DNA of 64,000 nucleotides, taken from NCBI GenBank assembly GCA_028284625.1, contig JANQRH010000029.1, positions 62,001-126,000 of the forward strand, read 5' to 3'. Source of the stretch: Afifellaceae bacterium (GTDB lineage: Bacteria; Pseudomonadota; Alphaproteobacteria; Rhizobiales; Afifellaceae). This document shows, piece after piece, positions 19,464 through 35,661 of the stretch (the stretch's first letter is position 1; every line of letters starts with the position of its first letter). Both the position numbers and the translations under genes were made by a program. The notes under the pieces were generated by a model that made no database searches, was not told the origin of the DNA, and saw nothing but the letters and a program-made list of their open reading frames with translations.

Positions 19464-20726
19464 CTATCGATTGCTCGCAGCCAGAACGGCCAGGGTTCCG
19501 GCGAGAAACGAGTCGCCAAGGCCGATCGTGGTGGCGGGGTGCATGTGATGGGGCGTCGGACAACCGACGAAATGGCCGTGCGCGCCCGCCGGGCGAATTT
19601 CGGGCCAGGGAAGCGGGTGAAGCGTTGCGCCGGGGGGCAATCCAACAGGGGCGACGGGCCGGCCGGCGGCAGCGCGCGCCGATGCGGTGAGGCTTCCGTA
19701 GCGAATCGCCCTCAGCTCTTTGGCCGGATCGTCGCGCGTCAACGACATAACCCATCGATCCGCGTGGACGTTGACTCGGTCAAAGCCATAGCTCTCGGCA
19801 ACGCGATGCACGGCCTCGTCGAGCGAGGCTTCGTCGATGGCATCCTCGCCGTTCAGCGTCGCAAGCTCAGCCGCATTCATCCCCACGGAATTGCAAGTGC
19901 CGCCAAAGGTCTTCAGCACTTTGACGAGCCCGGCGGGCGTGGTGAAGTCGGCAAGTTCAAGGTGCAGGAGCGGTACGCCGGACGATGCCCATTGCGAAGC
20001 CAATCGATGCGCCCAGATCAACGCGTCATCAAAGGCGTCGCCGGACAGCGCGTTGAAGCCGGACACAATCGCTGCGCCGATTTCGCCGTCGAAGTCGGCG
20101 GTGTAGTCCGCGAACGCGTCGTCAAACTCAAACTCGTCCTGGCCGAACCGGAGAATGATCCGGTCTGCGCGCGGCGATGCTTCCGGCCCGCTATTCGCCG
20201 CGAACTCGATGATCGGATGACGGAATGCGCGGCGGCTGCCCGATGCGGCGCAACTGTCGCTCGGCGGCGCAAGGACGACGTTTGCATGGAGGAGCTTTGT
20301 GAGGTCGGGGTCGCGATGCTCAAGCGCGAGTACCGGGCAGGCTCCAATCAAGGCAAGCTGATTGGCCGCCTGTACGGCCGTCCCGCCGGGCAACGTCCTC
20401 TTTGGTTGGATGGCATCGAAGAATCGCAGACCATCCGGCCAACTAAACTCAAGCTCTCCGCCCCGGCCGGAGTTGATATATTCAAGAAGCTGCCGTTTCA
20501 GCTCCTTTTCTGTCTCTCCACCAGATCGATCCAGATACTCAATGATCGTATCGGCGTCGTATATATGATCAATACATGCAGAAAATCCGCAAAAAACTGC
20601 CGGAAGATCGGTCGCTGCCCTTTCTACATCTTCCGCGAGGGATTTGTATTGATGTTCCAGGCGCACGATTCTTGCTCCGTCAGCACCGCAGGGTTCGCTT
20701 CCCGAGGAACCCTGAGAATGCGCCAT
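19464..20726 (-). CDS. ADP-dependent phosphofructokinase/glucokinase family kinase
   Basis: Predicted ribokinase-fold sugar kinase of the ADP-dependent glucokinase/phosphofructokinase family, 420 residues. Visible motifs are CGFSACIDH (46-54) in the sugar-binding lobe, LPGGTAVQAANQLA (112-124), the ADP-kinase block NSVGMNAAEL (279-288) and the catalytic GLGDSF (402-407). Family members of about 450 residues phosphorylate glucose or fructose-6-phosphate with ADP; they are best known from archaea and are uncommon in bacteria. An alternative GTG start at 20666 has GGAG 8 nt upstream and may be the true one. It forms an operon with the LacD aldolase and is divergent from a DeoR regulator. ADP use is inferred. 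Confidence 0.75.
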   Translation of the reverse strand: MAHSQGSSGSEPCGADGARIVRLEHQYKSLAEDVERAATDLPAVFCGFSACIDHIYDADTIIEYLDRSGGETEKELKRQLLEYINSGRGGELEFSWPDGLRFFDAIQPKRTLPGGTAVQAANQLALIGACPVLALEHRDPDLTKLLHANVVLAPPSDSCAASGSRRAFRHPIIEFAANSGPEASPRADRIILRFGQDEFEFDDAFADYTADFDGEIGAAIVSGFNALSGDAFDDALIWAHRLASQWASSGVPLLHLELADFTTPAGLVKVLKTFGGTCNSVGMNAAELATLNGEDAIDEASLDEAVHRVAESYGFDRVNVHADRWVMSLTRDDPAKELRAIRYGSLTASARAAAGRPVAPVGLPPGATLHPLPWPEIRPAGAHGHFVGCPTPHHMHPATTIGLGDSFLAGTLAVLAASNR

Positions 20727-21724: not shown

Positions 21725-22501
21725 TCAATCGCCGCCGCGAATGGGCCACTTAGAGAAGTCCTCCAAAAAGCGCGTCAGTTCCTCGACAATGGCTGAGAAG
21801 AAACGCTCGCCTTTTTCGGCGCTTGCAAGCTCCGGGTCACCGAACACGCCGCTCGCCGACAGATCTGCGAAGTCGTTATAGGTTCGGATGGGCGAAGAGC
21901 GTGTCAGGTCGGTGGTCAGATAGGGCGAGCCGGTATCGGGGTAGACGGCCTTGGCTTCATCCATGCCGACGAGCTCGGGCGTCAGATGAAGCAGCAGCGA
22001 GGTTTCCATCTCGCCGGCATGGCCGGTTCCGCCGGGTCTTGAATCGCGCACCGCATCGATCTGCTTGGCGGCCAGCTGAAAATAGGTCAGGCCGGCGATG
22101 GAAGCGCGACCGTAATGCGCCTTGCCCAGCGTCGTGGCCAGAACGTCGAGCGCCGGTCGGTTGCCGCCATGGCCATTGATCATGAGGATGCGACGAAAGC
22201 CGTGCGCGACGGCGCTGCCGACAATGTCACTGACGATCGCCCGCATCGTATCGACGCTTAAGGTCAGGGTGCCGGAGAAGCGCATGTGGTGCTCCGACAC
22301 GCCATACCAGGGCGGCGGCAGAACGAAGGTGTCGCTTCGTTGCTCGGCCGCCGCGTCGCAGACTGCTTTGGCGATCATCGTATCGGTGCCGAGCGGAAGA
22401 TGCGGTCCGTGCTGCTCAACGGCGCCGAGCGGCAGGAGCAGGATTGTTGAGTTCCGATCGAGGGCTGCAACGGTCGGAGAAGTAAGGTGCTCGTAGCGCA
22501 T
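21725..22501 (-). CDS. Creatininase-family amidohydrolase
   Basis: Metal-dependent hydrolase of the creatininase fold, 258 residues. Metal-site motifs are GAVEQHGPHLPLGTD (26-40), NGHGGN and HAGEMETS. The family opens cyclic amides such as creatinine, and includes formamide and sugar-lactam hydrolases. It is the last gene of the leftward operon UbiD, ammonia-lyase, UbiX, creatininase, and so probably hydrolyses an amide or lactam intermediate of that pathway. The start ATG 22501 is 68 bp after the UbiX stop. It converges with the DeoR gene. Confidence 0.87.
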   Translation of the reverse strand: MRYEHLTSPTVAALDRNSTILLLPLGAVEQHGPHLPLGTDTMIAKAVCDAAAEQRSDTFVLPPPWYGVSEHHMRFSGTLTLSVDTMRAIVSDIVGSAVAHGFRRILMINGHGGNRPALDVLATTLGKAHYGRASIAGLTYFQLAAKQIDAVRDSRPGGTGHAGEMETSLLLHLTPELVGMDEAKAVYPDTGSPYLTTDLTRSSPIRTYNDFADLSASGVFGDPELASAEKGERFFSAIVEELTRFLEDFSKWPIRGGD

Positions 22502-22569: not shown

Positions 22570-23145
22570 TCACGCCTCCTTCCAGCGGCGCACAGGTCCC
22601 GCGTCGATCCCGAACAGGTCGAGCGCCCGAACCGCGGTAAAGGTGACCATATCGTCGATGCTCTCCGGCATGGGATAGAAAGCCGGAACCGGTGGCATGA
22701 CGATCGCGCCGAACTCCGTCACCGTCACCATGTTGCGGCAATGGCCGAGATGAAGCGGTGTTTCGCGAACGAGCAGGACCAGCCGCCGCCGCTCCTTGAG
22801 CGTGACGTCGGCGGCGCGGGCGACGAGCGTTGCGCCGGAGCCCGCCGCGATCTCGCCCAGCGTCTTGGCCGAGCACGGCGCGACGATCATGCCCTCCGTC
22901 CGGAACGATCCGCTGGCGATCGCGGCGGTCACGTCGTCATTGTCATAGGTCTTGTCGGCGAGGGCGGTCACCTCGCGCACCTTCATCGACGATTCGTAGG
23001 CCAGTGCCACCTGCGCCGGCTTGGAGATGATGAGGTGGGTCTCGTAGTCGCTGCTTCGCAGAAGCTGTAGCAGCTTGATGCCATAGACCAGACCGGATGC
23101 GCCGGTCATGGCGATCAAGAGGCGGCGGGGCGTAGCATCCGTCAT
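22570..23145 (-). CDS. UbiX-family flavin prenyltransferase
   Basis: A 191-residue flavoprotein with the UbiX N-terminus LLIAMTGASGLVYGIKLLQLL. The phosphate- and flavin-binding PCSAKTLGEIAAG segment and the C-terminal MVTFTAVRALDLFGID are also typical. UbiX attaches a prenyl group to FMN to make prenylated FMN, the cofactor of UbiD decarboxylases. Its position one gene away from a UbiD-family enzyme (24883-26244) fits a dedicated maturation partner. It starts 55 bp after the ammonia-lyase stop. Confidence 0.9.
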   Translation of the reverse strand: MTDATPRRLLIAMTGASGLVYGIKLLQLLRSSDYETHLIISKPAQVALAYESSMKVREVTALADKTYDNDDVTAAIASGSFRTEGMIVAPCSAKTLGEIAAGSGATLVARAADVTLKERRRLVLLVRETPLHLGHCRNMVTVTEFGAIVMPPVPAFYPMPESIDDMVTFTAVRALDLFGIDAGPVRRWKEA

Positions 23146-23200
23146 GGTGCAGAGGAACTCGTTGGCGCGGCGATTACTGCCTTACGATACAGGACAGGCC

Positions 23201-24832
23201 TTACGCCAGCGATCCCAACTTCTGCTCTACCGCCTCGCGTAGCGCGCCTGCGTCGACCAGCTCGCGCGCCGCAACAAGGTCGGCATGCAGCCAACGGTCG
23301 CCGTCGAGCGCTGCGGGAATGCGTCCCCGGATCGCCTCATAGGCGGCCTGAGTGCCGCCGCCGAGATCGAACGCGCCGAGCGTCTCCTTGGTAACACTCA
23401 GGGCCTGTGCTGCGATCAACAATTCGGTGCCGACGATCTGGCTGACGTTCTCCACAATCGTGCGCGCCTTGCGGGCAGACCAGGTGGAATTGGAGACGTG
23501 GTCCTCCTGGTTGCTTTTCGTGGGAACGGAATCGGTGCCGGCGGGCCAGCACAGCGTCTTATTCTCCGTCACCAGCGCCGCCATGGAGCAATGCGCGATG
23601 GCGTAGCCGTAGTTCACGCCAGTCAGCTTGGCGACGAGGTTGCTGGGCAGGCCATAGGACATTGTCGGGTCGAGCATGCGATAGCTTCGCCGCTCGCTGA
23701 TGCTGCCGACATCCGTCATGACGGCCGCCAAGTGATCCATGACCTGCGCGACGTACTGGCCGTGGAAATTCCCTTGGCTCAGCGCCTCATATCCCCCTTG
23801 GCCGTCTTCAAAGATCAGGGGATTGTCGGTGGCGGCGTTCATCTCCACTTCCAGCACGCGGTCGACGTAGTCGAGTGCGTCGCGCGCCGGTCCGTGGACC
23901 TGCGGTGCGCATCTTAATGAGTAAGCGTCCTGCACGCGCTGCGGGATCGTCTGGTGGGTGACGCTGATATCGTCGGGCAGGCGCACCTGCCTGGCCTCTT
24001 CGGTGCAGCGTTGGCTTCCATCGACGAGGCGGCGCACATTCTCCGCCGTCGCGACCTGCCCGGCATGCGGGCGCGCTTCGTGCACGCGCGGATCAAAGGC
24101 GGCCATCTCGCAGCGCATGGCCTCAAGGCTCAGGGCGAGAGCGATGTCGGCCGACACGAGCACATTGCGCGCCTCTTCGGCGGCAAGAACCGCCACGGCG
24201 AGCGAAACCGTGCTGCCATTGATCAATGCCAAGCCGTCCTTGGCGCGAAGCTCAAACTCAGGCTCCAGCCCAGCGCGCTTCAGCGCGTCCTGCGCCGGCA
24301 GGCGCTCGCCCTTATAAAAGGCCTCCGCGCTGGGATGACCGGTGAGCGTGCCTGTCAGATAGGCGAGGGGGGCAAGGTCGCCGCTCGCGCCGACGGAGCC
24401 GATCTGCGGAATCACCGGATGAACGCCGCGATTGAGCATGGCGAGAAGCCGCTCCACGGTTTCGCGGCGCGGCCCCGAAACGCCGCGAACAAGCGCGTTG
24501 ATGCGAAGCACCAACAGCGCGCGGACGGCGTCCTCCGGAAACGGCTCGCCCACGCCTGCGGAATGCGCGTGCACGAGCATTTTTTGAAAGAGGTCGATAT
24601 GCTCGACGGGGATGTGCGTGTCCTTCAACCGGCCGAGGCCGGTGTTGAATCCGTAGACGGGCTTGGCGCCCTCCTTGAGCCAGTTGGCCTCGATGTAGCT
24701 GCGTGCTGCTTCCAACCTCTCCCAGGCGGACTGCGCCACACTGATCGGCTCGCGACCGTCCTCGTCCAATTGCCGAGCGACGCGCACCAGATCGGCAGCT
24801 TTTAACGAGTGGCCGTCGAGCACGAGGGTCAT
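23201..24832 (-). CDS. Histidine/aromatic amino acid ammonia-lyase (HutH-like)
   Basis: MIO-dependent ammonia-lyase of 543 residues. The MIO-forming tripeptide is ASG at 149-151 (GSVGASGDLAPL), and the catalytic Tyr is Y60 in VYGFNTGLG. At the substrate-selectivity loop it reads LVHAHSAGVG: A89-H90 instead of Ser-His of bacterial histidine lyases, His-Leu of tyrosine lyases or Phe-Leu of phenylalanine lyases. The His makes a histidine-like substrate most plausible. It lies between UbiD and UbiX genes and away from any hut gene, so it is unlikely to be ordinary hutH; ergothionase-type or another histidine-derivative lyase is possible. Confidence 0.85.
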   Translation of the reverse strand: MTLVLDGHSLKAADLVRVARQLDEDGREPISVAQSAWERLEAARSYIEANWLKEGAKPVYGFNTGLGRLKDTHIPVEHIDLFQKMLVHAHSAGVGEPFPEDAVRALLVLRINALVRGVSGPRRETVERLLAMLNRGVHPVIPQIGSVGASGDLAPLAYLTGTLTGHPSAEAFYKGERLPAQDALKRAGLEPEFELRAKDGLALINGSTVSLAVAVLAAEEARNVLVSADIALALSLEAMRCEMAAFDPRVHEARPHAGQVATAENVRRLVDGSQRCTEEARQVRLPDDISVTHQTIPQRVQDAYSLRCAPQVHGPARDALDYVDRVLEVEMNAATDNPLIFEDGQGGYEALSQGNFHGQYVAQVMDHLAAVMTDVGSISERRSYRMLDPTMSYGLPSNLVAKLTGVNYGYAIAHCSMAALVTENKTLCWPAGTDSVPTKSNQEDHVSNSTWSARKARTIVENVSQIVGTELLIAAQALSVTKETLGAFDLGGGTQAAYEAIRGRIPAALDGDRWLHADLVAARELVDAGALREAVEQKLGSLA

Positions 24833-24882
24833 GCTGTTCTCCTTGGTATTGTCATGGGGCCGTTCCGCCCCGAGATGTCGGA

Positions 24883-26244
24883 TCAGTATTTGTCGATGTC
24901 GCGCTTCACGCGTTGCATGAGGTCGTCGGGCGGCTTGGCGAATTCGGAACGGCTGCCGGGCTCGCCGTCACCCGGCCGGGTGGTTGCAACCATGCCCACC
25001 TTGGTGACCGTCCCGTTCTCTTCAAGCGGGTCGCAGCGATCGGCCTTCACGCCCGGCAGGACGATCAGATCCTCATGGCCGCGAAAGCGGGCGGCGAGCG
25101 CCCATTCCACCTGCGTCCAGTCTTCCGGATCGAGGTCGTCGTCGATCACGACGACCAGCTTCAAGAGGTTCACCTGGCCCATGGCCATGAGCACGGCGCG
25201 TTTGCCTTCGCCGCGCTTCGCCTTGTGCATCGTGATGATGGCGTGCAGGCGGCCCATGCCACCGTCGGTGATCACGACCCTGCGGACCGAATGAATGACG
25301 CGGCGGAGCGCCTGGCACACGGTTGCGCCGATAGCGATGCCGCCAAGGAGGCAATGCTCCGACGCGTAGCCGGGCAGGACCGCCTGATAGATCGCGTCTC
25401 GGCGGCGGGTCAGGCATTGCACGTTCACCTCAATGCCGCTGCCATAATAGACGTAGAATCCGGGGAACTCTGAGACGGCGCCCTCATCGATGGAGCGGTC
25501 GGGATGCAGCGTTCCCTCCAGGACGATCTCCGCTTCGGCCGGCACCTCAAGATCGACGGTGGCGCAGCGGGTGAGGCGGAGCGGCTCGCCAAGCAGACTG
25601 CCGGCGATATCGTATTCGTCGTCGCCGAATTCGACATACATCTGCGACGCCAGCAGGACCGCCGGGTGATTGCCGATGGCGATCGCGATCTCCAACGGCC
25701 GGCCGAGTGCCGCAGCCCGATTGGCGAGAATTGTCAGGTGATGGCTGGGTGCAATACCGGCCATCAGCCGGTTGCCGCCTTCAAGCCTGAGGCGAGCGAT
25801 CGATATGTTGCGGCGTCCGGTGTCGGGGTCTTTCGCAACGATCACGCCGGCGGAGATATAGGGGCCGCCCTCCTTCTCAAACCATGTCGGAACCGGCAGA
25901 AGGCAGCCGATATCGAGGTCGTCCTTGATCACCATCTCCGATACCGGCGCCTCGTCGACCAGGACCGGCGGCAAGCGCTTGGCGAGTGCGGCCTGAAGGG
26001 TTTCGTCAAGGTCCTCCGTCGGCACGCCCAGGCCGCGGGCGATCTTCGCCCGCGTGTTCATCACATTGGCGACGACCGGCACATCATGCTCGGCAATTGC
26101 CGCGAAGAGCTGCGCCGGGCCGCGATCGCGCTCGATGAGCACTGCGGCGATCTCATATTCGGCGCTGACAGTGCGGCTTACGACATGGAGGTCGCCGGTC
26201 GCCTTCAGGTCGTCGAGAAAGCCGCGCAGGCTTTGATGGTTCAT
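24883..26244 (-). CDS. UbiD-family prenylated-FMN (de)carboxylase
   Basis: A 453-residue UbiD-fold decarboxylase. The catalytic triad of the family is recognisable: R151 in NISIARLRLEG, and E254/E259 in DEGAVSEFPG, with the usual five-residue spacing. The family reversibly decarboxylates acrylic, aromatic or heteroaromatic acids using prenylated FMN. It is the first gene of an operon with an ammonia-lyase, UbiX and a creatininase-family enzyme. The acrylate formed by a lyase (urocanate-, cinnamate- or coumarate-like) is an obvious candidate substrate. That link is inference. Confidence 0.88.
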   Translation of the reverse strand: MNHQSLRGFLDDLKATGDLHVVSRTVSAEYEIAAVLIERDRGPAQLFAAIAEHDVPVVANVMNTRAKIARGLGVPTEDLDETLQAALAKRLPPVLVDEAPVSEMVIKDDLDIGCLLPVPTWFEKEGGPYISAGVIVAKDPDTGRRNISIARLRLEGGNRLMAGIAPSHHLTILANRAAALGRPLEIAIAIGNHPAVLLASQMYVEFGDDEYDIAGSLLGEPLRLTRCATVDLEVPAEAEIVLEGTLHPDRSIDEGAVSEFPGFYVYYGSGIEVNVQCLTRRRDAIYQAVLPGYASEHCLLGGIAIGATVCQALRRVIHSVRRVVITDGGMGRLHAIITMHKAKRGEGKRAVLMAMGQVNLLKLVVVIDDDLDPEDWTQVEWALAARFRGHEDLIVLPGVKADRCDPLEENGTVTKVGMVATTRPGDGEPGSRSEFAKPPDDLMQRVKRDIDKY

Positions 26245-26314: not shown

Positions 26315-27088
26315 TCATGTCCGCAGCGCCGTCTTGGCGTAGCGATCGGCGATGCGGTTCGCGGCGTCCTTGAGACGAGCCAAGATGGTCTCCAACTTGT
26401 CGCCCGGCGAGCGGTGCACTGGGCCTGCGACGTTGAGGCCGGCTACGAACTTTCCGTCCCACAAAAGGATCGGAACGCAGACGGCCCAGGCGTCGGTGTC
26501 AAGCTCGCCGGCGGTTTGCGCGAAGCCTTGCCGCCGGATCTGAGCAAGGTCGCGCCTGATCCGTTCGGGCTCGACAAATTTCGGTTCAGTGAAGACCTTG
26601 AGTTCGCCGCTTAAGACATGCTCCCGCTCATGGCTGCTCATATGGGCCATCACAATCTTGCCGGACGCGCCGGCGTAAAGCGGGAATTGTTCGCCCTTGC
26701 GATACGACAGACGAACGGGCCGCGAGCACTCCACCTGCTCAAAGCAAAGCGCCTGCCAACCTGAGCGGACGGTGACGAAGGTCGTTTCGCCGAGCTCTGC
26801 GACCAGTTCGTGCAACACCGGCAGGCAGGCGTTGGAAAGCTCCACCCGCGTGTCGGCGACCTTGCCGAGCTGAACGAGTTGATAGCCGAGTTCGATATGC
26901 CCCGGCCTTCCGCCGGCGCGCAGGAAGCCACGGTTCCGCAGCACCTTCACCAGGCGGTAGGCCGTGCTGCGTGTCAGGCCGAGCTGATCCATCACACCCG
27001 TCAGCGTAACGCCACCACGTTCAGCGGCGGCGCACATCATGAGGACGTCGAGTCCTCGCTCCAGCGTTTGAAGCGACTTGTCGGCCAT
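26315..27088 (-). CDS. IclR-family transcriptional regulator
   Basis: A 257-residue regulator from ATG 27088 (MADKSLQTLERGLDVLMM). An N-terminal winged helix (VTLTGVMDQLGLTRSTAYRLVKVLRNRGFL) is followed by the IclR effector domain, including YAGASGKIVMAHM and the C-terminal WAVCVPILLWDGKFVAGLNVAGP. Upstream in-frame residues to 27268 overlap the divergent gene and are rejected. It stands between the UbiD operon and the amidohydrolase operon and likely controls both through the palindrome at 27090-27110. Confidence 0.9.
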   Translation of the reverse strand: MADKSLQTLERGLDVLMMCAAAERGGVTLTGVMDQLGLTRSTAYRLVKVLRNRGFLRAGGRPGHIELGYQLVQLGKVADTRVELSNACLPVLHELVAELGETTFVTVRSGWQALCFEQVECSRPVRLSYRKGEQFPLYAGASGKIVMAHMSSHEREHVLSGELKVFTEPKFVEPERIRRDLAQIRRQGFAQTAGELDTDAWAVCVPILLWDGKFVAGLNVAGPVHRSPGDKLETILARLKDAANRIADRYAKTALRT

Positions 27089-27146: not shown

Positions 27147-28562
27147 ATGGTTTGGCACAATCGGTTTGTGCAAGCATCAGGAACGGCCCCGTTGGCGGAG
27201 TTCGAGACGGTTATTCGCGGCGATGTCGTCGTTCCGGAACGGGTCATCCCCGGCGCCAGCATCGGCATCTCCGACGGCCGAATCTCAAAAATCTCAGCAA
27301 GTGAAACGTTGACCGGGCACCGCGTGGTCGACGCGACGGATTGCTATGTGCTGCCTGGCGCCGTTGACGGCCAGGTTCACGCCTACTCTCAAGCGGATCG
27401 TGAAGGGATCATCATTGCAACGCGGGCGGCCGCGGCCGGGGGTGTCACGACGATCGTGGACATGCCCTATGACGAACCCCAGCCCATCAACAACGCCGAA
27501 CTCTTTCGTCGCAAAGTGGAGGTCGTCGGCGAGGAAGCTCACGTTGACGTTGCGCTATACGCCACCATGGCGAAGGAGGGCGGGGTCGCCGATCTGAAGC
27601 CGCTGATCGAGGCGGGCGCCTGCGCCTTCAAGTTCTCAATGTGCGAGAGCCATCCGATCCGGTTTCCGCGCATTGCGATGGGCGACATGCTCGACGCCTT
27701 TACGACCGTAGCGCCCTCCGGCCTTGCCTGCGGCGTGCATAACGAGAACCAGGAAATCGTCGACACCTGCATCGCGCGGCTCTCCAAGGAGATGCCCAAC
27801 GATCCGCGTGTTCATGGTCTCAGCCGGCCGCCGGTTTCGGAGAGCATGGCGATCGGAGAGGTGTACGAGCTTGGGCTTGCGAGCGGGTGCCGCGCCCATA
27901 TCGTTCATTGCTCCATCGGGCACGGCATCGATCTGTGCACCTACTACAAGGGGCGCGGCGCCAAAGCGAGCATCGAGGTCTGCCTGCATTATCTGGTCTT
28001 CAATGAAGACGAGCTTCTCACCCAAGGTGCAAAAGCCAAGATCAACCCGCCGCTTCGCCCGCAGGCTGAGGTGGAGCGGCTGTGGGATTGCCTGCGCGCC
28101 GGCGAGATCGATTTCGTGTCCACTGACCACGTCGCGTGGAGCCTGGACCACAAGAGCAATCCGGAATTCTTGAAGAACAAATCCGGCGTGCCGGGGCTGG
28201 AAGCGCTCGTGCCGGTCTTCTTCACCGAATGCGTCAAGCGCGGATTTGAGATCACCACGATTGCTCGGATGCTGTCGGAGCAGCCAGCCAAGCACTTCCT
28301 GCTTTATCCGCAAAAAGGTGCGATCCACGTGGGCTCCGACGCCGATTTGATCATCCTGGAGAAGTCGGAGGGCACGATCGACAGCGCGCGCTGGCAAAGC
28401 GCGGCGGAGTGGAGCCCCTATGACGGCCGCCAAGTCTTGGGTCGCGTGGCGGCCACTTATGTTCGCGGTGTCGAAGTGTGGGACGGTTCATCGATCAAAG
28501 TGGAGCCGGGCTTCGGCCGTTTCCTTCGTCCCAATCGAGAGGGGGCATCCCATGCCGCCTAA
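27147..28562 (+). CDS. Cyclic amidohydrolase (allantoinase/dihydropyrimidinase-like) with altered metal site
   Basis: A 471-residue TIM-barrel amidohydrolase expected to open a hydantoin, dihydropyrimidine or allantoin-like ring. Metal-site residues are K162 (carbamylated Lys in FKFS), H198, H254 in HIVHCS, and D327 in VSTDH. The first motif, normally HxH, reads DGQVH: Gln76 replaces the first His. Apart from this the fold looks intact, so the metal site may be mononuclear or altered. The first codon is ATG 27147 or possibly GTG 27168. It overlaps the downstream N-carbamoyl amidohydrolase gene by 11 bp, so both ring opening and decarbamoylation are encoded together. Confidence 0.85.
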   Translation: MVWHNRFVQASGTAPLAEFETVIRGDVVVPERVIPGASIGISDGRISKISASETLTGHRVVDATDCYVLPGAVDGQVHAYSQADREGIIIATRAAAAGGVTTIVDMPYDEPQPINNAELFRRKVEVVGEEAHVDVALYATMAKEGGVADLKPLIEAGACAFKFSMCESHPIRFPRIAMGDMLDAFTTVAPSGLACGVHNENQEIVDTCIARLSKEMPNDPRVHGLSRPPVSESMAIGEVYELGLASGCRAHIVHCSIGHGIDLCTYYKGRGAKASIEVCLHYLVFNEDELLTQGAKAKINPPLRPQAEVERLWDCLRAGEIDFVSTDHVAWSLDHKSNPEFLKNKSGVPGLEALVPVFFTECVKRGFEITTIARMLSEQPAKHFLLYPQKGAIHVGSDADLIILEKSEGTIDSARWQSAAEWSPYDGRQVLGRVAATYVRGVEVWDGSSIKVEPGFGRFLRPNREGASHAA

Positions 28563-29841
28563 GCCGCAGGTCAATTCGGAGCGGCTTTGGCGCGGGATCG
28601 AAGACCTCGCGAAACTCACCGATGGCGAAAAGCCTTTCACCCGCCGGGCGTTCTCCGACCTTTATCTCGAAGGCCGCCGTTATTTGGCGGAGCGGTTCGA
28701 CGAAGCCGGATTGTCCGTGACGCGTGACACGGCAGGCAATCTGGTCGGGCGGCGCGCCGGCACCGAACAAGGACTGGGCTCCGTCGCCGTGGGGTCGCAT
28801 TCCGACACCGTGCCGGCCGGCGGTCGGTTCGACGGCATCGTCGGCGTTCTGGCCGGGCTGGAGATCGCCGAGACGTTGAGCGATGCCGGCATGAAGCTGC
28901 GGCATCCTTTCGAAGTCATCGATTTCTTGGCCGAGGAGCCGAGCCCTTACGGACTGTCCTGCATCGGAAGCCGTGCTGTTTCAGGTGGGCTCTCCGCTGA
29001 CCTTCTGGCCCAGCAAGGCCCGGACGGCAGCACGCTAAAGGATGGAATTGCCAGGGTCGGCGGCGATCCTGATCGGCTGGGCGATAGTCTGCGGTCTGCG
29101 CAGGATATCGCCTGCTTCCTTGAAGTTCATATCGAACAAGGCCCGGTGCTGGAATCGACGGGCGTGCCGATTGGCGTGGTGACCGACATTGCCGGCATCA
29201 CGCGTGTGGAGATCGTCGTTCGCGGCCGCGCCGCGCATTCGGGAACGACGCCGATGACGATGCGCAGCGATGCGCTCGTCGCTGCTTCGGAGATCGTGTT
29301 GTGGGTTGCCCGACAGGCAACCGAATGGGCGGAAACCAAACCGGGCTTCGTCGCAACGATCGGCAGGCAGATCGTGGAGCCGAACGGCGCCAATGTCGTT
29401 GCCGGCCGGGTGACCATGACGCTGGAGATCCGCTCCGGTTCCGACAAAGCACGCAGCGATTTTCTGGCGGAGACGGAAGCTTATGCCCGCGGCCTTGCCG
29501 GCAAGGCGGGCCTTGAAATCGACATGTGCCCGATCAGCGAAAGCGGCGCGGCGGCATGCGACAACACAGTGATTGAGACGCTGAGCGAGGCCTGCAGGTC
29601 GGCCGGCGTCAACTTTCGAATGATGTCCAGCGGCGCCGGGCACGATACCGCGCACATGGCGCGTGTTGTGCCGTCTGGGATGATCTTCATCCCGTGCCGC
29701 GACGGGCGAAGCCATTGCCCCGAAGAATGGGCGGACCGGGATCACGTGGCATGCGGAGCGCAGGTTCTGTGCGACGCGGTGATCCTTCACGACGCGACTG
29801 CCGAAACAAACACACGGTCCGCCTCAGCAATGTTGGCGTAG
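28552..29841 (+). CDS. M20 Zn-dependent N-carbamoyl amino acid amidohydrolase
   Basis: A 429-residue peptidase M20-family amidase, of the group with N-carbamoyl-L-amino acid hydrolase, allantoate amidohydrolase and beta-ureidopropionase. Metal motifs are GSHSDTVPAGGRFDG, EEPSPYG, HIEQGPVLE and the late GRSHCPEEWAD; the dimerisation/substrate motif is GRAAHSGTTPM. ATG 28552 follows AGAGGGGG and overlaps the upstream gene by 11 bp. It would remove the carbamoyl group (CO2 + NH3) after hydantoin ring opening. The EEPSPYG block differs from the usual EEGSRF, which may affect substrate choice. Confidence 0.88.
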   Translation: MPPKPQVNSERLWRGIEDLAKLTDGEKPFTRRAFSDLYLEGRRYLAERFDEAGLSVTRDTAGNLVGRRAGTEQGLGSVAVGSHSDTVPAGGRFDGIVGVLAGLEIAETLSDAGMKLRHPFEVIDFLAEEPSPYGLSCIGSRAVSGGLSADLLAQQGPDGSTLKDGIARVGGDPDRLGDSLRSAQDIACFLEVHIEQGPVLESTGVPIGVVTDIAGITRVEIVVRGRAAHSGTTPMTMRSDALVAASEIVLWVARQATEWAETKPGFVATIGRQIVEPNGANVVAGRVTMTLEIRSGSDKARSDFLAETEAYARGLAGKAGLEIDMCPISESGAAACDNTVIETLSEACRSAGVNFRMMSSGAGHDTAHMARVVPSGMIFIPCRDGRSHCPEEWADRDHVACGAQVLCDAVILHDATAETNTRSASAMLA

Positions 29842-29890
29842 TAGGCGCCGGGTCGTGCCACCGATCCGGCGGGTTATAGGAGGGAGAAAG

Positions 29891-31078
29891 ATGACAGGGT
29901 TGTTCAAAGCTTCGATGCCACGTCGCACGCGCACTGTGGCGCTTGCGGCCGGGTGCATTCTCGCGGCCACAATGGCTTACGCGCAAGACGATTCAGGGCC
30001 GATCTACTTCGCCGTTGCCTCGCCGCTCACCGGCGGTTCGGCGGCCTACGGAATCAACGCCCAACGCGGCGGGGATCTGGCGGTAGAAGCCATCAACGCA
30101 GCCGGCGGGATCGGCGGCCGCGAGGTTGTCTTGGAATATTTCGACGACATGGGCACGCCGCGTGAATCGGCCGCCGTTGCAAACCGCATCGTACGCGATG
30201 ACAAGTTCTGCGCGGTGATCGGGCACGTCAACAGCTCGTCCACACTGGCCGCGATGCCGATCTACAATGAAGCGGGCATCTCGGTGCTCAACGGCTCGTC
30301 AAGTAATCCGTCGATTACCGAGCAAGGGTGGAACAACATCATCCGCATGACGATCCGCGGCGACCGCGGCGCGCAGCAATATTCCGCCTTTGCGATCAAC
30401 AATCTCGGCCATGACGAGTTGGCGATCTTTTACGTGAACAGCGATTTTGGCCGCGCGCTGCGTGACGATATGGTCAAGGCGGTGGATGCGCTCGGCGCCA
30501 AGGTCGTGGCGGAAGAAACCTTCACGCCCAATGTCGATCGCGACTTCTCCGCGCAGATATCGTCGCTGCGCAGGGGCAATCCCGACGTGATCATGCTGAA
30601 CACCGACTACAATGAGGGCGGCCTGTTCCTCGGTCAGGCGCAGGATCGGGATTTCGCCGGGATCGATGTCGTCGGTCCGGACTCCAACCTCTACGACCAG
30701 TTCATCGAGCTGTCGCAGGGGGCGGCGGAAGGCGCCTATTTGCTCGCGGCGTTTGATCCCTTCGCCGACCGGGATGCCGTCAAGACCTTCATGTCCGATT
30801 TTGAGGCAGCGTATGATTCGTTGCCGTCGCAAGTGGCGATCTTCACCCACGACCTTCTGTGGCTTGCCAAGAGAGCGATGGAGGACGAGGGCGCGACCTG
30901 TGACACGCTGATCGATACCGCCAAGAGCATGAACTTCAGCGGTGCCGGCGGCGACTATGCCTGGGACGAGAAGGGCGATGTCAGCGGTCGCACTTTCGCA
31001 GTGATCCAGGTCGTCGACGGCCAGTTCGTCTCCACTGGCAAGGGTGTCGACGAGACTGGACTGGAGGCGCTGCGCTGA
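29891..31078 (+). CDS. Branched-chain-type ABC substrate-binding protein (LivJ-like)
   Basis: A 395-residue type I periplasmic binding protein. ATG 29891 follows AGGAGGGAGAAAG. The signal peptide ends AYA before QDDSGPIYFAVASPLTG. It has the LivJ features GGSAAYGINAQRGGDLAVEAIN and VIGHVNSSSTLAAMPIYNEAGI. It serves the permeases and ATPases at 32206-35661. Two unrelated small genes lie between it and livH. Homologues bind amino acids, amides, urea or aromatic acids, so it may capture the substrate of this catabolic cluster. Confidence 0.9.
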   Translation: MTGLFKASMPRRTRTVALAAGCILAATMAYAQDDSGPIYFAVASPLTGGSAAYGINAQRGGDLAVEAINAAGGIGGREVVLEYFDDMGTPRESAAVANRIVRDDKFCAVIGHVNSSSTLAAMPIYNEAGISVLNGSSSNPSITEQGWNNIIRMTIRGDRGAQQYSAFAINNLGHDELAIFYVNSDFGRALRDDMVKAVDALGAKVVAEETFTPNVDRDFSAQISSLRRGNPDVIMLNTDYNEGGLFLGQAQDRDFAGIDVVGPDSNLYDQFIELSQGAAEGAYLLAAFDPFADRDAVKTFMSDFEAAYDSLPSQVAIFTHDLLWLAKRAMEDEGATCDTLIDTAKSMNFSGAGGDYAWDEKGDVSGRTFAVIQVVDGQFVSTGKGVDETGLEALR

Positions 31079-31126: not shown

Positions 31127-31170
31127 TCGATTGCTGCAACCGCTTGGTTTGAGGGAAAGGACAATTGGGA

Positions 31171-31614
31171 ATGGCAGCGAAGACATTTAACTGGCGGCTT
31201 GTGCATTTTGACACGACGCTGCGCCTCGGCCCGGCGCCCCATAATCAGGAGCTATTCGACTGGTTCGTTGAGAACCTCCCCATCCAGACGTTCACCGGCC
31301 AGACGGTTGTCGGCGGGTACAGCTTCTTTCATCTGAGCGTGCCGTTGAAAATTCCGGCGCCGTGGAAGAGCGACAAGGATCTGGTCCAAGAGGACATCTC
31401 GGAGATGCCGGTCGGCCGTCTCAACTTCTTCCTTACCGCCGGCCTGACCGCGGGCATGGCGTTGAAATGGGGCTTCTTCAATGAGCCCATGTCCTATCCG
31501 ACCTGGGCTCAGGTCGTTGAGGAGGACATTCCGGCTCTGGAAGAGGTCGGCAAGAAGGCATGGGACAACATGATGACCCGCAAGGACGTCATGCTGGTCG
31601 AGATGACGGCCTAA
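31171..31614 (+). CDS. Small protein of unknown function in liv-type operon
   Basis: A 147-residue protein with no signal peptide or membrane helix; ATG 31171 has GGGAAAGG upstream. I do not recognise it securely. The C-terminal half (PVGRLNFFLTAGLTAGM, then FFNEPM and VVEEDIPALEEVGKKAW) vaguely recalls the cyclophilin-like domain of cucumopine-synthase-type proteins, an impression from memory only. It lies between a LivJ-like gene and livH, next to a second small protein, and both are co-transcribed with ring-opening enzymes. A cytoplasmic enzyme or enzyme subunit acting on the imported compound is my best guess. Confidence 0.7.
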   Translation: MAAKTFNWRLVHFDTTLRLGPAPHNQELFDWFVENLPIQTFTGQTVVGGYSFFHLSVPLKIPAPWKSDKDLVQEDISEMPVGRLNFFLTAGLTAGMALKWGFFNEPMSYPTWAQVVEEDIPALEEVGKKAWDNMMTRKDVMLVEMTA

Positions 31615-31643: not shown

Positions 31644-32156
31644 ATGACCTGGCGTGACGTATTGACGACCATCCAGACCGCCGCGGCTGACATCCAAAAG
31701 GCGCCGCCCGACGACATGCTGCGCCTGTTCCATCACCAGGTCGTGCCGAGCGGGGCTGGCAACAACGCCCAATGCTTCACGACATGGTATTTCGGCGGCG
31801 CGGATATTCGCTATCTCGGCGCTTACACCTATCAGATCGTGAAGCTCGCCGGCGATTCCTCCTTCACGGTGGATCAGCTGAAGACGATGTTTAAGGAGTT
31901 CGTCCCCCAGCCATCGGAGTTCGTGGCCTATTGCGGCGTGCGGACGCAGTGGGAGTACGTTCAGGACATCGTCCGGGTTCTCCCGGAGATCGACGATCGC
32001 GACGACCTTCTGGCGCTGCTCAATGCTTTTCTGAGCTACGCTGCCAGCCTCAATGGCTGGGTCTACCATTACATGAAGTGGGAGATCAGTGGGCTCTATC
32101 AGCATAAGATGCCGGAAGACATCGAGGAGATGTCGCGGCTTTCAAAAGCCTCCTGA
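31644..32156 (+). CDS. Small helical protein of unknown function in liv-type operon
   Basis: A 170-residue protein, predicted soluble and largely helical, with no signal peptide; AGAAGAGGA precedes ATG 31644. Notable segments are FTVDQLKTMFKEF, PSEFVAYCGV and the aromatic NGWVYHYMKW near residue 145. These faintly recall the helical-bundle domain of cucumopine-synthase-related proteins, which act on histidine-derived opines; this is not verified. It sits 29 bp after the other small protein and 49 bp before livH. The pair may be two subunits of one enzyme. Confidence 0.7.
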   Translation: MTWRDVLTTIQTAAADIQKAPPDDMLRLFHHQVVPSGAGNNAQCFTTWYFGGADIRYLGAYTYQIVKLAGDSSFTVDQLKTMFKEFVPQPSEFVAYCGVRTQWEYVQDIVRVLPEIDDRDDLLALLNAFLSYAASLNGWVYHYMKWEISGLYQHKMPEDIEEMSRLSKAS

Positions 32157-32205: not shown

Positions 32206-33081
32206 ATGGCTTATGTGATCGAGCAGCTGATCAACGGTCTGGCGGTCGGCAGCGTCTACGCTTTGATCGCTGTCGGCTATTCCATGGTCTACAGCATTCT
32301 CTATCTGATCAACTTCGCCCATGGCGATGTGATCACCTTCGGCGCCTTCACCGCGCTCACCATGTTGGTGATCGGCGTGCCGATACCGGTGGCGTTGTTC
32401 CTGGCATGCGTGCTTGGCGCAGCACTTGGCATGACGGTGGAGAGGATCGCCTATAGACCGGTGCGATATGCCAACCGTATCGTCCCAATGATCAGCGCGT
32501 TGGGCGCCGGGCTTGTCATCGCCTCCACCGCGCAGGCGATCTGGGGGCCGGAGGTCCACGCCTTCCCGCAGGTTATTCCGCGCTGGTCGTTTGAGCTCTT
32601 CGGGCAGCTCATTCCGTTCCAGCCGCTGATCATTATCGCGATCGCGGTGGTGCTGGTGACGATCGCTACCATCCTGCTTGACTATACGCGGCTTGGACGC
32701 GCGACGAAGTGCGTCTGTCAGGACATCCACGCCGCTCAGCTGATGGGTATTCCCATCAACACCATCGTGCCGCTCGTCTATGCGATCGGCGGCTTTCTCG
32801 GCGTGGCGGGTGCTGTTCTCTACGTCACCTACTTCAACGCCGTCTACATCCAGATGGGCCTTCTGGCGACCTTCAAGGCGTGGTCGGCGGCCATGCTGGG
32901 TGGCGTGGGCAATTTTCACGGTGCCTTTGTGGGTGGCCTCCTGCTCGGCATTGCCGAGGCGTTCTCAGTTGTCGTGGTGGGGTCGGCGTTCAAGGATGGC
33001 GTCAGCTTGGTGTTCATCGTCCTGATCCTGCTTCTGAAGCCGGACGGGCTGTTCGGCGAGCGAACGACAGCCAGATCATGA
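32206..33081 (+). CDS. livH: Branched-chain-type ABC permease LivH
   Basis: A 291-residue permease of the LivH type: N-terminal INGLAVGSVYALIAVGYSMVYSILYLINFAHGD and C-terminal LLKPDGLFGE are family hallmarks. TGGAGG lies upstream of ATG 32206. Its stop overlaps the livM start as ATGA (33078-33081). With LivM it forms the membrane channel of the importer whose binding protein is 29891-31078. Symbol given for the family; the substrate is unlikely to be plain leucine in this setting. Confidence 0.92.
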   Translation: MAYVIEQLINGLAVGSVYALIAVGYSMVYSILYLINFAHGDVITFGAFTALTMLVIGVPIPVALFLACVLGAALGMTVERIAYRPVRYANRIVPMISALGAGLVIASTAQAIWGPEVHAFPQVIPRWSFELFGQLIPFQPLIIIAIAVVLVTIATILLDYTRLGRATKCVCQDIHAAQLMGIPINTIVPLVYAIGGFLGVAGAVLYVTYFNAVYIQMGLLATFKAWSAAMLGGVGNFHGAFVGGLLLGIAEAFSVVVVGSAFKDGVSLVFIVLILLLKPDGLFGERTTARS

Positions 33082-34118
33082 GTGCCTCGCAGCAGACGAC
33101 CCACGCCGAACCGGCGCGTGGGCTCATGGAAAGATGGCTGCCGGCCGTCGCCGCGATCGCGTTCCTCATCGCTTTTCCTTTTGTTGCCGATGGCTATCTG
33201 CTCCATGTCGCCAACATCTCGCTGATCTTCATCTTGCTGGCCATCGGCCAGAACATCATCACCGGCTATACCGGCATGCTGTCTCTCGGGCATGCGGCCT
33301 TCTACGGCGTCGGCGCGTATACGTCGGCGCTGTTGACGCTGCGCCTCGGCGTCAGCTGGCCGGTCGCGTTTCTCGCCTCCGGCGTCGTGGCTTCAATCGT
33401 CGGGATGCTCATTGCGTTGCCGTGCCTGCGTGTGCGCACCGACTTTCTCAGCCTGATCACCATCGCCTTTGCTCAGATGTTCTTCGTCGTAGCCAATGGC
33501 TGGATGGGTTTGACGCGTGGGCCGATGGGATTGACGGGCATCCCGCGCATCTCGATCGGCTCCTGGGTCGCGCACAATGACATCTCCTATTATGCGGTGT
33601 TCGCCTGTATCGTCGTGGTGATCTATGTCGCCGTTCAGCGAATCCTCAACAGCTCGATCGGCCGCGCGTGGGAAATGGTCCGAGACGATGAGGTCGGGGC
33701 GCTGTCGCTCGGGGTCGATGTGACATATTACAAAGTCCTGTCGTTCGGCGTGGGCACGTTCCTCGCCGGATTGGCCGGCAGCATGTTCGCCCATTACATC
33801 CGGTTTCTGTCGCCCGACGCTTTTCTTCTTCTTGAGTCGCTCATCATCATGCAGATGGCGATCCTCGGTGGATTGGCGAGCCTGCCGGGCTCCGTCCTGG
33901 GCGCGGTCCTCCTCATCTCCATTCCCGAGGCGTTGCGCTCTTCAGAACCGCTCCTGATCACCTATCGCCCCGGCTTGGCGGGTGCGCTTCTGGTGGCGAT
34001 GATGATCTGGCGGCCGCAAGGCATTCTGGGCCGCACACGCGCGACACCGCCGATTGTCCGGCAGATCAGCGATACCCTGCGTCGGCTGGTGGGCGCTCGG
34101 CCCGTGGCAAATCCGTAG
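33078..34118 (+). CDS. livM: Branched-chain-type ABC permease LivM
   Basis: A 346-residue permease with the LivM signature GYTGMLSLGHAAFYGVGAYTSALL and the coupling region GRAWEMVRDDEVGALSLGVDV. ATG 33078 overlaps the livH stop; the much longer upstream open frame is antiphase to livH and is rejected. The first ~20 residues are a polar cytoplasmic tail. It ends 8 bp before livG. Confidence 0.92.
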   Translation: MSASQQTTHAEPARGLMERWLPAVAAIAFLIAFPFVADGYLLHVANISLIFILLAIGQNIITGYTGMLSLGHAAFYGVGAYTSALLTLRLGVSWPVAFLASGVVASIVGMLIALPCLRVRTDFLSLITIAFAQMFFVVANGWMGLTRGPMGLTGIPRISIGSWVAHNDISYYAVFACIVVVIYVAVQRILNSSIGRAWEMVRDDEVGALSLGVDVTYYKVLSFGVGTFLAGLAGSMFAHYIRFLSPDAFLLLESLIIMQMAILGGLASLPGSVLGAVLLISIPEALRSSEPLLITYRPGLAGALLVAMMIWRPQGILGRTRATPPIVRQISDTLRRLVGARPVANP

Positions 34119-34126
34119 GCTTCGTC

Positions 34127-34900
34127 GTGGCGCTCTTCCAAGCCACAGACATCACGCGGCGCTTTGCCGGCGTCGTTGCGGTGGACGGCGTGTCGCTCCA
34201 GGTCGACGAGGGTGAGATCCTCGGCCTGATGGGCCCCAATGGCAGCGGCAAGACGACCTTCATCAATTGCGTCAGCGGCGTTGACCAGGCGAACTCAGGC
34301 CGGGTCATGTTCGATGGCAGCGACATTACGAAGATGAAGCCGTTCCGCGTGGCTGAACGCGGCATTGGCCGAACGTTTCAGAACCTCCGGCTCTTTGAAA
34401 ACATGACGACCACCGAGAACGTCATGTGCGGCGGCCATTTGCGGCAGAACACCGGGCTGGTCGGTGCGCTGCTTCCCTCTCGCTCACGGCAGCAGCGCAA
34501 TGCTGAGGAACGTGAGCGCGCCGTCTCGCTTCTGCGTGAGGTGGGGCTGGAGGATCGCATCGATCAATATGCGACGGATCTCTCCTACGGCCAGACCAAG
34601 AGGCTGGAGCTCGCCCGCGCGCTCAACATCGAGCCGCGGCTCTTGCTGCTGGACGAACCGACCGCCGGCATGAACGATCGCCAGGCGGCAGAGATTTTGG
34701 GATTGGTGCGGCGCATTCAGCGTGACCGCGGCATCGCCATGATCGTGATTGAGCACAACGTGCCGGCGCTGGTTTGGCTGGCCGATCGCATTGCCGTTTT
34801 GGAGGCGGGGCGGGTCCTGGTTGAGGATGAGCCAGAGATTGTGGCGCGCCATCCTGACGTCATTCGCGCGTATCTCGGCGAGGAGGCGCTTGACGAATGA
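34127..34900 (+). CDS. livG: Branched-chain-type ABC ATP-binding protein LivG
   Basis: A 257-residue ATPase starting at GTG 34127. Walker A GPNGSGKTT (near 39-47), signature LSYGQ, Walker B LLLLDEPTAGM and the H-loop in VIEHNV identify LivG. It overlaps livF by 4 bp (ATGA). It energises the LivHM channel together with LivF. Confidence 0.93.
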   Translation: MALFQATDITRRFAGVVAVDGVSLQVDEGEILGLMGPNGSGKTTFINCVSGVDQANSGRVMFDGSDITKMKPFRVAERGIGRTFQNLRLFENMTTTENVMCGGHLRQNTGLVGALLPSRSRQQRNAEERERAVSLLREVGLEDRIDQYATDLSYGQTKRLELARALNIEPRLLLLDEPTAGMNDRQAAEILGLVRRIQRDRGIAMIVIEHNVPALVWLADRIAVLEAGRVLVEDEPEIVARHPDVIRAYLGEEALDE

Positions 34901-35661
34901 GCCTGCTGGAGATCCGGGACGTCACGTGCGGCTACGGGCACCGCATGGTGATCGATTCCATGAGCGTGACGGTGGACGAAGGCGAAGGCGTCTCGCTGCT
35001 CGGGCACAACGGCACCGGTAAGAGCACGCTGATCCGCGCCATCTCCGGCGTGATTCCGGTCAAATCGGGCGCTATCCTCTTTGAGGGGAAGCCGGTCGCC
35101 AATCTCACGCCCGACGCCCTGGTCAAGCGGGGCATCGTTCATGTGCCTGCGGGTCGCCGCGTCTTTCCCAATATGAGCGTTGAGCACAATCTGGAGGCCG
35201 GCGCGTTCACGCGCACCGACCGCCAAGAGGTCTGGCACGACGTGGAAGCCATGATGGAGCGCTTCCCGATATTGGGAGAGCGTCGCAAGAGTGCGGCCGG
35301 CCTGCTCAGCGGCGGCGAGCAGCAGGTGCTGGCCGTCGCGCGCGGCTTGATGGCGCGTCCCAAACTGCTGATGGTCGACGAGCCGTCGCTTGGATTGTCG
35401 CCGACCATGGTGCAGTTCGTCTTCGGCATCCTGGCGGAGCTGCGCAAGGATGGGACGAGTGTCATGCTCGCCGAGCAGAACGTCCGCAAGGCGCTTGCCG
35501 TCACCGACCGGGCCTATGTGCTGGCGCAGGGCCGCGTCATCATGGACGGGCCAAGCGAGTCATTGCTCAGCAGCGAAGCGTTCCGCGAGGACTATCTCGG
35601 CGCAAAACGCGGCGGCAGCTTCGGCGAGCTGGTCGAGGAAGCGCTGGGCACACAATCATGA
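34897..35661 (+). CDS. livF: Branched-chain-type ABC ATP-binding protein LivF
   Basis: A 254-residue ATPase. Walker A GHNGTGKST, signature LSGGEQQ, Walker B LLMVDEPSLGLSP and the H-loop position reading LAEQN match LivF. Its start overlaps the livG stop and its stop overlaps the following SDR start (ATGA at 35658-35661), so transport and metabolic genes are translationally coupled. Confidence 0.93.
   Translation: MSLLEIRDVTCGYGHRMVIDSMSVTVDEGEGVSLLGHNGTGKSTLIRAISGVIPVKSGAILFEGKPVANLTPDALVKRGIVHVPAGRRVFPNMSVEHNLEAGAFTRTDRQEVWHDVEAMMERFPILGERRKSAAGLLSGGEQQVLAVARGLMARPKLLMVDEPSLGLSPTMVQFVFGILAELRKDGTSVMLAEQNVRKALAVTDRAYVLAQGRVIMDGPSESLLSSEAFREDYLGAKRGGSFGELVEEALGTQS

Follow-up and report, generated by a model that had tools for sequence, protein, structure and literature searches.

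A recurrent gene module joining an MIO ammonia-lyase and a prenylated-FMN UbiD with hydantoinase and carbamoylase, possibly for catabolism of a modified histidine-like amino acid

The described systems closest to the locus examined here are histidine utilisation (hut), ergothioneine catabolism (ert), the cucumopine catabolic regions of pAtAG67 and pRi2659, the urate/allantoin loci and the furan decarboxylase HmfF. In imidazole catabolism, urocanase uses NAD+ as its electrophile and ergothionase expels trimethylamine. Among UbiD enzymes, which employ prenylated flavin mononucleotide (prFMN), furan-type substrate specificity in HmfF is set by the position occupied by H297 (N318 in PA0254), and in PA0254, a related UbiD, prFMN is reported to bind imidazole covalently at C2 (PMC7976604). 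Here, we analysed a 64-kb stretch of contig JANQRH010000029.1 from an Afifellaceae bacterium (hereafter the window, to whose full length all window coordinates refer; its genome is labelled G000), in which ubiD, an ammonia-lyase gene of the methylidene-imidazolone (MIO) type and ubiX lie at 22570-26244. This arrangement, already recognised in the initial annotation, is borne out as one minus-strand operon with gaps of 50 bp and 55 bp, all three products scoring over their family profile cut-offs. The hydantoinase and the carbamoylase encoded nearby, on which that annotation was silent, belong to the same conserved unit. We consider it possible, at somewhat less than an even chance, that the module serves the catabolism of a modified histidine-like amino acid, bearing an imidazole or imidazolone ring and an extra polar or acidic group, and not of histidine.

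The evidence that the genes form a unit comes from their recurrence. A search for the UbiD at a threshold of E<=1e-90 covered about 780 genomes, 397 from the order and 385 from the class, and returned orthologues in 12; a PF00221-fold lyase is found in the same cluster in all 12, accompanied by a carbamoylase in 11/12 and a hydantoinase in 10/12. By contrast, the 8 UbiD paralogues that come next in similarity (35-38% identity) have no lyase, hydantoinase or carbamoylase within 20 kb; UbiX lies near 7/8 of them. With the lyase in 12/12 orthologue clusters and 0/8 paralogue neighbourhoods, the pairing of UbiD and lyase is not due to chance. Seven grapevine Agrobacterium/Allorhizobium plasmids carry the full five-enzyme set. 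The set is also present on plasmids of Rhizobium jaguaris and R. tropici, where the lyase is divergent and the alignment of the R. tropici carbamoylase is only partial. Clusters of the same kind occur in a Trueperaceae metagenome-assembled genome (MAG; L003) and, interrupted by contig ends, in two Chloroflexi MAGs (L004, L005); their lyases share 64-69% identity with that of the window. Closer to home, an Afifellaceae MAG of the Hyphomicrobiales (L002) keeps the gene order of the window, its lyase being 97% identical. The conserved unit is thus lyase, UbiD, UbiX, hydantoinase and carbamoylase, which travel together in distant bacteria.

Three lyase subfamilies recur beside the UbiD, namely the MIO type, an ergothionase-like type (L135-L137, nearest to Treponema denticola ergothionase in the PDB) and a third, more divergent one (L106, L134, L195, L197). 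Both of the latter are without an intact MIO, and the same holds for the lyase in S-methyl-thiourocanate cluster L108. The functional coupling of lyase and UbiD is strongly supported, and in this respect the initial annotation's proposal of a deaminate-then-decarboxylate module holds up; the substrate and the decarboxylated position that it envisaged are not supported. The module lyases may act on free-amine or betaine forms of similar compounds. The divergent MIO-less histidase-fold lyases are encoded at 10022-11071 in L106, 9878-11257 in L195 and 12159-13598 in L197, as well as in L134, and in L195 this lyase is the only module partner of the UbiD, about 20 bp away.

Hydantoinase and carbamoylase suggest how the pathway ends. 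The hydantoinase of most module loci scores far over the cut-off of 600 bits for NF058538 (ErtD), with 784 in L136, 772 in L104 and 745 in L082, and the hydantoinase of the ert-type cluster L108 scores 784, equal to that of L136. Sequence identities do not divide the hydantoinases by locus type, those of UbiD modules falling among those of thiourocanate clusters (L136 shares 78% with L109 and 75% with L105; L104 shares 70% with L108), and the carbamoylases behave likewise (L136 shares 61% with L105). The window carbamoylase clears the ErtE cut-off of 520 with 580 bits. Judged by these comparisons, the two enzymes of most module loci are interchangeable with ErtD and ErtE. Because they intermix with the ert-type copies, the pathway likely ends with the conversion of hydantoin-5-propionate via N-carbamoylglutamate to glutamate. 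The ergothioneine pathway proper can be rejected for the window, as searches of its genome with PF01175 and PF00221 found neither a thiourocanate hydratase (urocanase family) nor a MIO-less ergothionase.

The lyase retains the catalytic core of histidine ammonia-lyase (HAL), but not its histidine pocket. Its MIO triplet Ala-Ser-Gly (149-151) is intact, and alignments with 1gkm and within the clade show that Y53, H83, N195, Q277, Y280, R283, F329 and E414 of Pseudomonas putida HAL are kept. Passing the HutH equivalog TIGR01225 at 540.9 against 539.15 bits, a margin below 2 bits, gives a HutH label that is a weak annotation. In the pocket, K439, N398 and A411 replace S410, F370 and M382 of P. 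putida HAL, so the HutH-type histidine pocket formed by these three residues is absent. These exchanges are uniform within the clade: position 439 is Lys in 22/22 members versus Ser in 21/21 HutH, position 398 is Asn in 22/22 versus Phe in 20 and Met in 1 of 21 HutH, and position 411 is a small residue in 22/22 versus Met in 21/21. In HAL structures, S410 sits one helical turn ahead of E414, and M382 packs against the imidazole. The ring pocket is therefore predicted to be larger, more polar and positively charged. In a maximum-likelihood tree the clade, here termed K-type, stands apart from HutH with support of 97/100. The initial annotation had pointed to A89-H90, lacking the Ser of HAL, as a clue to specificity; these residues do align with S82-H83 of P. 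putida HAL, but relatives of the same clade have Ser-His, and we rejected the missing Ser as a clue.

Could the lyase nevertheless be the genome's HutH, caught by chance in an unrelated UbiD operon and serving ordinary histidine utilisation? A genome-wide profile search found it to be the only PF00221 protein of the window genome, with no second lyase, and it does just exceed the HutH cut-off. Against this, no urocanase (PF01175) was found in G000 or G001 and no HutI (TIGR01224) scores over cut-off in the window genome, leaving the window's genus without HutU or HutI; the separate clade and pocket and the conserved linkage to UbiD, hydantoinase and carbamoylase argue in the same direction. Outside the window's genus, all 11 module genomes checked carry a further HutH-scoring lyase and/or a urocanase, in most of them with HutH and urocanase within a few kb of each other, which makes the module lyase a paralogue there. 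We regard an ordinary Hut function as very improbable and rejected it.

The UbiD contains domains PF01977, PF20695 and PF20696, and its triad R151/E254/E259, read to the letter in the initial annotation, is intact and kept in aligned orthologues. Its best PDB match is PtHmfF (6h6v, 297 bits), compared with 161 bits for indole-3-carboxylate decarboxylase and about 95-111 bits for Fdc1 entries. His297 falls on the HmfF specificity position, and a His is kept there in all module UbiDs aligned. An Fdc1-type enzyme would be nearest to Fdc1 and have no heteroaromatic-type His or Asn at the HmfF H297/PA0254 N318 position, which is not what we see; on similarity scores and the specificity His, an Fdc-like UbiD was rejected. 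Going by sequence, the UbiD is HmfF-like with a heteroaromatic-acid His, and UbiX, by its family, is the predicted supplier of its prFMN. The HmfF-like character, the conserved His and the imidazole C2 adduct of PA0254 together make a ring carbon more likely than the acrylate as its site of action.

This bears directly on the route proposed in the initial annotation, in which the lyase would form a heteroaryl acrylate and a UbiD of ferulate decarboxylase (Fdc) type would turn it into a vinyl heteroarene, as from histidine to vinylimidazole. The recurrent adjacency of UbiD to three lyase subfamilies and the known chemistry of Fdc speak for such a route. However, the UbiD is far from Fdc1, no vinyl-processing enzyme accompanies it, and what is conserved instead, hydantoinase and carbamoylase, has no obvious use for a vinyl compound. 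The lyase falls outside HutH with a remodelled pocket that disfavours histidine, separate HutH and/or urocanase genes exist in the 11 genomes mentioned, and sister lyases in purine loci have no adjoining UbiD. A vinyl product is thus improbable.

Taking these elements together, catabolism of a modified histidine-like amino acid could proceed as follows. The compound would be imported by the ATP-binding cassette (ABC) transporter. Loss of NH3, catalysed by the MIO lyase, would then turn it into a urocanate analogue; sister modules with a MIO-less lyase would start from the betaine and split off trimethylamine. The prFMN-loaded UbiD would next work on the heteroaromatic ring and not on the acrylate, the simplest reaction being loss of a carboxylate carried by that ring. 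The hydantoinase would open the resulting hydantoin (hydantoin-5-propionate or a close analogue), and the carbamoylase would release glutamate (or an analogue), CO2 and NH3.

A different role for the cofactor would be that of a urocanase substitute, the prFMN of UbiD acting as the electrophile that hydrates 2-oxo- or 2-thio-urocanate to a (thio)hydantoin-propionate, with no decarboxylation. Such a role would account for the fact that most UbiD modules lack the ert thiourocanate hydratase yet have the same ErtD and ErtE, would suit a genus with no urocanase at all, and has a chemical parallel in the adduct of PA0254. However, no hydrating UbiD is known, the decarboxylase triad is intact, and Thalassospira L105 holds both UbiD and thiourocanate hydratase. 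We judge this role unlikely, and grade marginally lower still its specific form for urocanase-less bacteria, in which prFMN stands in for the NAD+ of urocanase and converts 2-oxo- or 2-thio-urocanate, delivered by the re-specified MIO lyase, to hydantoin-propionate.

A sister group of the window lyase suggests yet another substrate class. Nine lyases (L006, L007, L008, L142, L188-L192) are nested within its clade (support 100/99), and those with informative flanks adjoin the urate oxidase PuuD, the 2-oxo-4-hydroxy-4-carboxy-5-ureidoimidazoline decarboxylase UraD or an AllC-type allantoate amidohydrolase, with no UbiD beside them. Such K-type MIO lyases are seen in L188, L191, L192, L142, L007 and L006, and in L188 (9870-11486) and L191 (9674-11296) the lyase directly follows AllC in an operon. 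None of the 8 genomes of these lyases has a ureidoglycine aminohydrolase (UGHY) over cut-off, and ureidoglycolate lyase is missing in 7/8, with a weak match in the remaining one. AllC forms ureidoglycine, which is an alpha-amino acid carrying urea as its side chain, and the K-type lyases of urate loci, in genomes without UGHY, may therefore be ureidoglycine ammonia-lyases. To the pocket Lys, urea and imidazol-2-one would look alike, which could conceivably unify both branches if the substrate of the UbiD module were a 2-oxo-imidazole.

Extended to the module as a whole, this would mean that the K-type lyase strips NH3 from an amine just freed by a carbamoylase, which would be ureidoglycine in urate loci and an analogue of it in UbiD modules; the UbiD module would open an allantoin-like or ring-fused uracil (xanthine-type) compound, and UbiD would decarboxylate an imidazole carboxylate. 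Besides the nested clade and the missing ureidoglycine and ureidoglycolate steps, the idea gains from purine-fermenting clostridia, in which the enzymes leading from xanthine to imidazolecarboxylate still had no assigned genes in 2012 (PMC3519856). Several observations run counter to it: most module hydantoinases score as ErtD and not as allantoinase, module genomes keep UraD elsewhere and most of them also UGHY and AllA, the window genome has its own separate purine cluster, and the MIO-less lyases found in the same module suit a betaine better. A ureide or purine substrate is, in our estimate, rather unlikely. A stricter xanthine-fermentation reading, which casts hydantoinase, carbamoylase and UbiD in the roles still unassigned in clostridia, was demoted to a part of this alternative, as the hydantoinases intermix with ErtD.

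Several points weigh against a modified histidine-like substrate. No natural ring-carboxylated histidine was identified. Ring decarboxylation alone would not yield a hydantoin; no hydratase was found, and the genus lacks urocanase. The window hydantoinase falls just under the ErtD cut-off (588 against 600), that of L003 scores lower still, and that of L004 is nearest to allantoinase, so the hydantoin substrate may differ in these loci. In Ensifer canadensis L104 the lyase is the one module enzyme missing nearby, the other four being present, and Thalassospira marina L105, equally with no lyase nearby, combines UbiD, ErtD and ErtE with thiourocanate hydratase and thiohydantoin desulfurase. The sister lyases of urate loci hint at a ureide, and the position of a UbiD in the family tree does not always predict its substrate (PMC7976604).

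In the window's genus, a further step may precede lyase action. Inside the transporter operon lies a pair of adjacent genes encoding, as two proteins and not one, the cyclophilin-like and helical-bundle domains of a cucumopine synthase/Pictet-Spenglerase homologue; by synteny, the pair is absent from the other module loci mapped alongside. The cucumopine catabolic regions of pRi2659 and of pAtAG67, the latter named as such in the literature (PMC10745273), carry full-length homologues beside canonical hutH, hutU, hutI and hutG. This placement makes it plausible that the homologues run backwards in catabolism, in a retro-Pictet-Spengler sense. The partner lyase in the window being K-type and not HutH, the split homologue may free a different amino acid from an opine-like adduct. 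As a general function of the module, cucumopine catabolism is unsupported, as the known regions use canonical HutH/HutU with no UbiD annotated; it would be a window-specific add-on only.

The features of the locus are collected in Table 1. On the minus strand, iclR, ubiD, the lyase gene, ubiX and the creatininase-family gene follow one another at spacings of 50-70 bp, and from the other side of iclR a plus-strand arm runs through hydantoinase, carbamoylase, binding protein, the two small genes of the split pair, ABC permeases and ATPases. The iclR reading frame is open to 27268, with its start likely near 27088, and the hydantoinase start lies between 27147 and about 27200. The carbamoylase frame overlaps the hydantoinase stop by 14 bp. 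The first three ABC genes have LivH/LivM/LivG-family matches, the second ATPase being read from its translation. Similarity of the binding protein was uninformative, and we dropped it as a guide to the substrate. The creatininase-family enzyme could open an imidazolone ring; the synteny comparison did not show its gene next to the module in any other lineage mapped.

Table 1. Genes of the module and its surroundings in the window, in order of position
Feature	Coordinates	Strand	Profile and structure matches
Creatininase-family amidohydrolase, final operon gene	21725..22501	-	PF02633 2.1e-76; under cut-off of every named equivalog
UbiX flavin prenyltransferase	22570..23145	-	TIGR00421 233 bits (cut-off 109); NF004685 244 bits, also over cut-off
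MIO ammonia-lyase, K-type clade, ASG at 149-151	23201..24832	-	PF00221 6e-173; TIGR01225 540.9 bits
UbiD-family prFMN (de)carboxylase, HmfF-like	24883..26244	-	TIGR00148 305 bits (cut-off 245); PF01977 1.4e-55
IclR-family regulator between both arms	26315..27088	-	PF01614 1e-29; PF09339 3.7e-10
Hydantoinase, ErtD-like (hydantoin-5-propionate amidohydrolase family)	27147..28562	+	NF058538 588 bits (cut-off 600)
N-carbamoyl-amino-acid amidohydrolase, ErtE-like	28549..29841	+	NF058540 580 bits (cut-off 520)
Periplasmic substrate-binding protein, branched-chain amino acid ABC type	29888..31078	+	PF13458 9.8e-55; PDB matches are amino-acid-binding proteins
Cyclophilin-like half, split cucumopine synthase/Pictet-Spenglerase homologue	31165..31614	+	PDB 9uwa 1.5e-7; 9ns6 'Pictet-Spenglerase' 7e-6
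Helical-bundle half, same split homologue	31644..32156	+	PF18631 8.7e-25; PDB 3x27 cucumopine synthase 1.1e-19
ABC permeases (32206-33081, 33075-34118) and ATPases (34127-34900, 34897-35661)	32206..35661	+	

Further genes drew our attention at the margins of these loci. In clusters of the A. vitis type, a gene of the PEP-mutase/isocitrate-lyase family (L082 6739-7671) is among the best-kept members (86-97%), and its nearest solved relatives are methylisocitrate-lyase-type enzymes. An unusually long LysR regulator of about 610-650 aa (L082 814-2685, L106 15979-17928, L140 11362-13191, L208 28748-30613) is common to UbiD modules, one ergothioneine-type cluster and a cucumopine region; in L082 it has two helix-turn-helix-like regions. 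In the window itself, a gene at 19464-20726 on the minus strand, flanked by genes for a sugar ABC binding protein and a DeoR regulator, gives a partial match to ADP-dependent glucokinase.

These findings describe a recurrent, uncharacterised context that joins MIO lyases and prFMN-dependent UbiDs in one pathway with a limited class of candidate substrates, and may bear on the recycling of modified histidines in soil and plant environments. A literature search returned no direct precedent for ErtD/ErtE operons, a ureidoglycine ammonia-lyase or Pictet-Spengler cucumopine enzymes. For annotation, proteins labelled hutH in grapevine Agrobacterium, other rhizobia and urate loci are probably not histidases, and those of urate loci are candidates, open to test, for the ureidoglycine step that is missing where bacteria lack UGHY. 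Were prFMN to act in place of urocanase, this would constitute a non-decarboxylating UbiD and a new route of imidazole catabolism.

Set against the known systems, the module shares parts with each. With hut (HutH-HutU-HutI) it has in common the lyase fold, the MIO and the catalytic Tyr, Arg, Glu and His residues, but it differs by the exchanges S410K, F370N and M382 to a small residue, by the absence of urocanase and imidazolonepropionase, and by lying outside any hut locus. HmfF (6h6v) is the closest solved UbiD and shares the specificity-position His and the R-E-E triad, whereas its R304 corresponds to Ile305 in the window UbiD, and furan-pathway genes are absent. The sister lyases closest to that of the module, which have an identical Lys/Asn/small pocket, are found in the urate/allantoin loci of Rugamonas and others (PuuD, UraD, AllC), yet no UbiD, UbiX or ErtD-like hydantoinase adjoins them. 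The pAtAG67 and pRi2659 regions likewise place cucumopine-synthase homologues by a histidase-fold lyase, an ABC importer and hydantoinase-type genes, although the lyase there is a HutH of canonical type accompanied by HutU, HutI and HutG, the hydantoinase/oxoprolinase pair belongs to another family and no UbiD is annotated. With the ert clusters (e.g. A. tumefaciens pAtAF1_95, L108) the module shares a histidase-fold C-N lyase, ErtD-like and ErtE-like enzymes and ABC import; the MIO, missing in the lyase of L108 and in T. denticola ergothionase, is intact in the window lyase, and UbiD and UbiX stand where the ert clusters have thiourocanate hydratase and thiohydantoin desulfurase. The module is, in this sense, an uncharacterised variant of ergothioneine-type imidazole catabolism.

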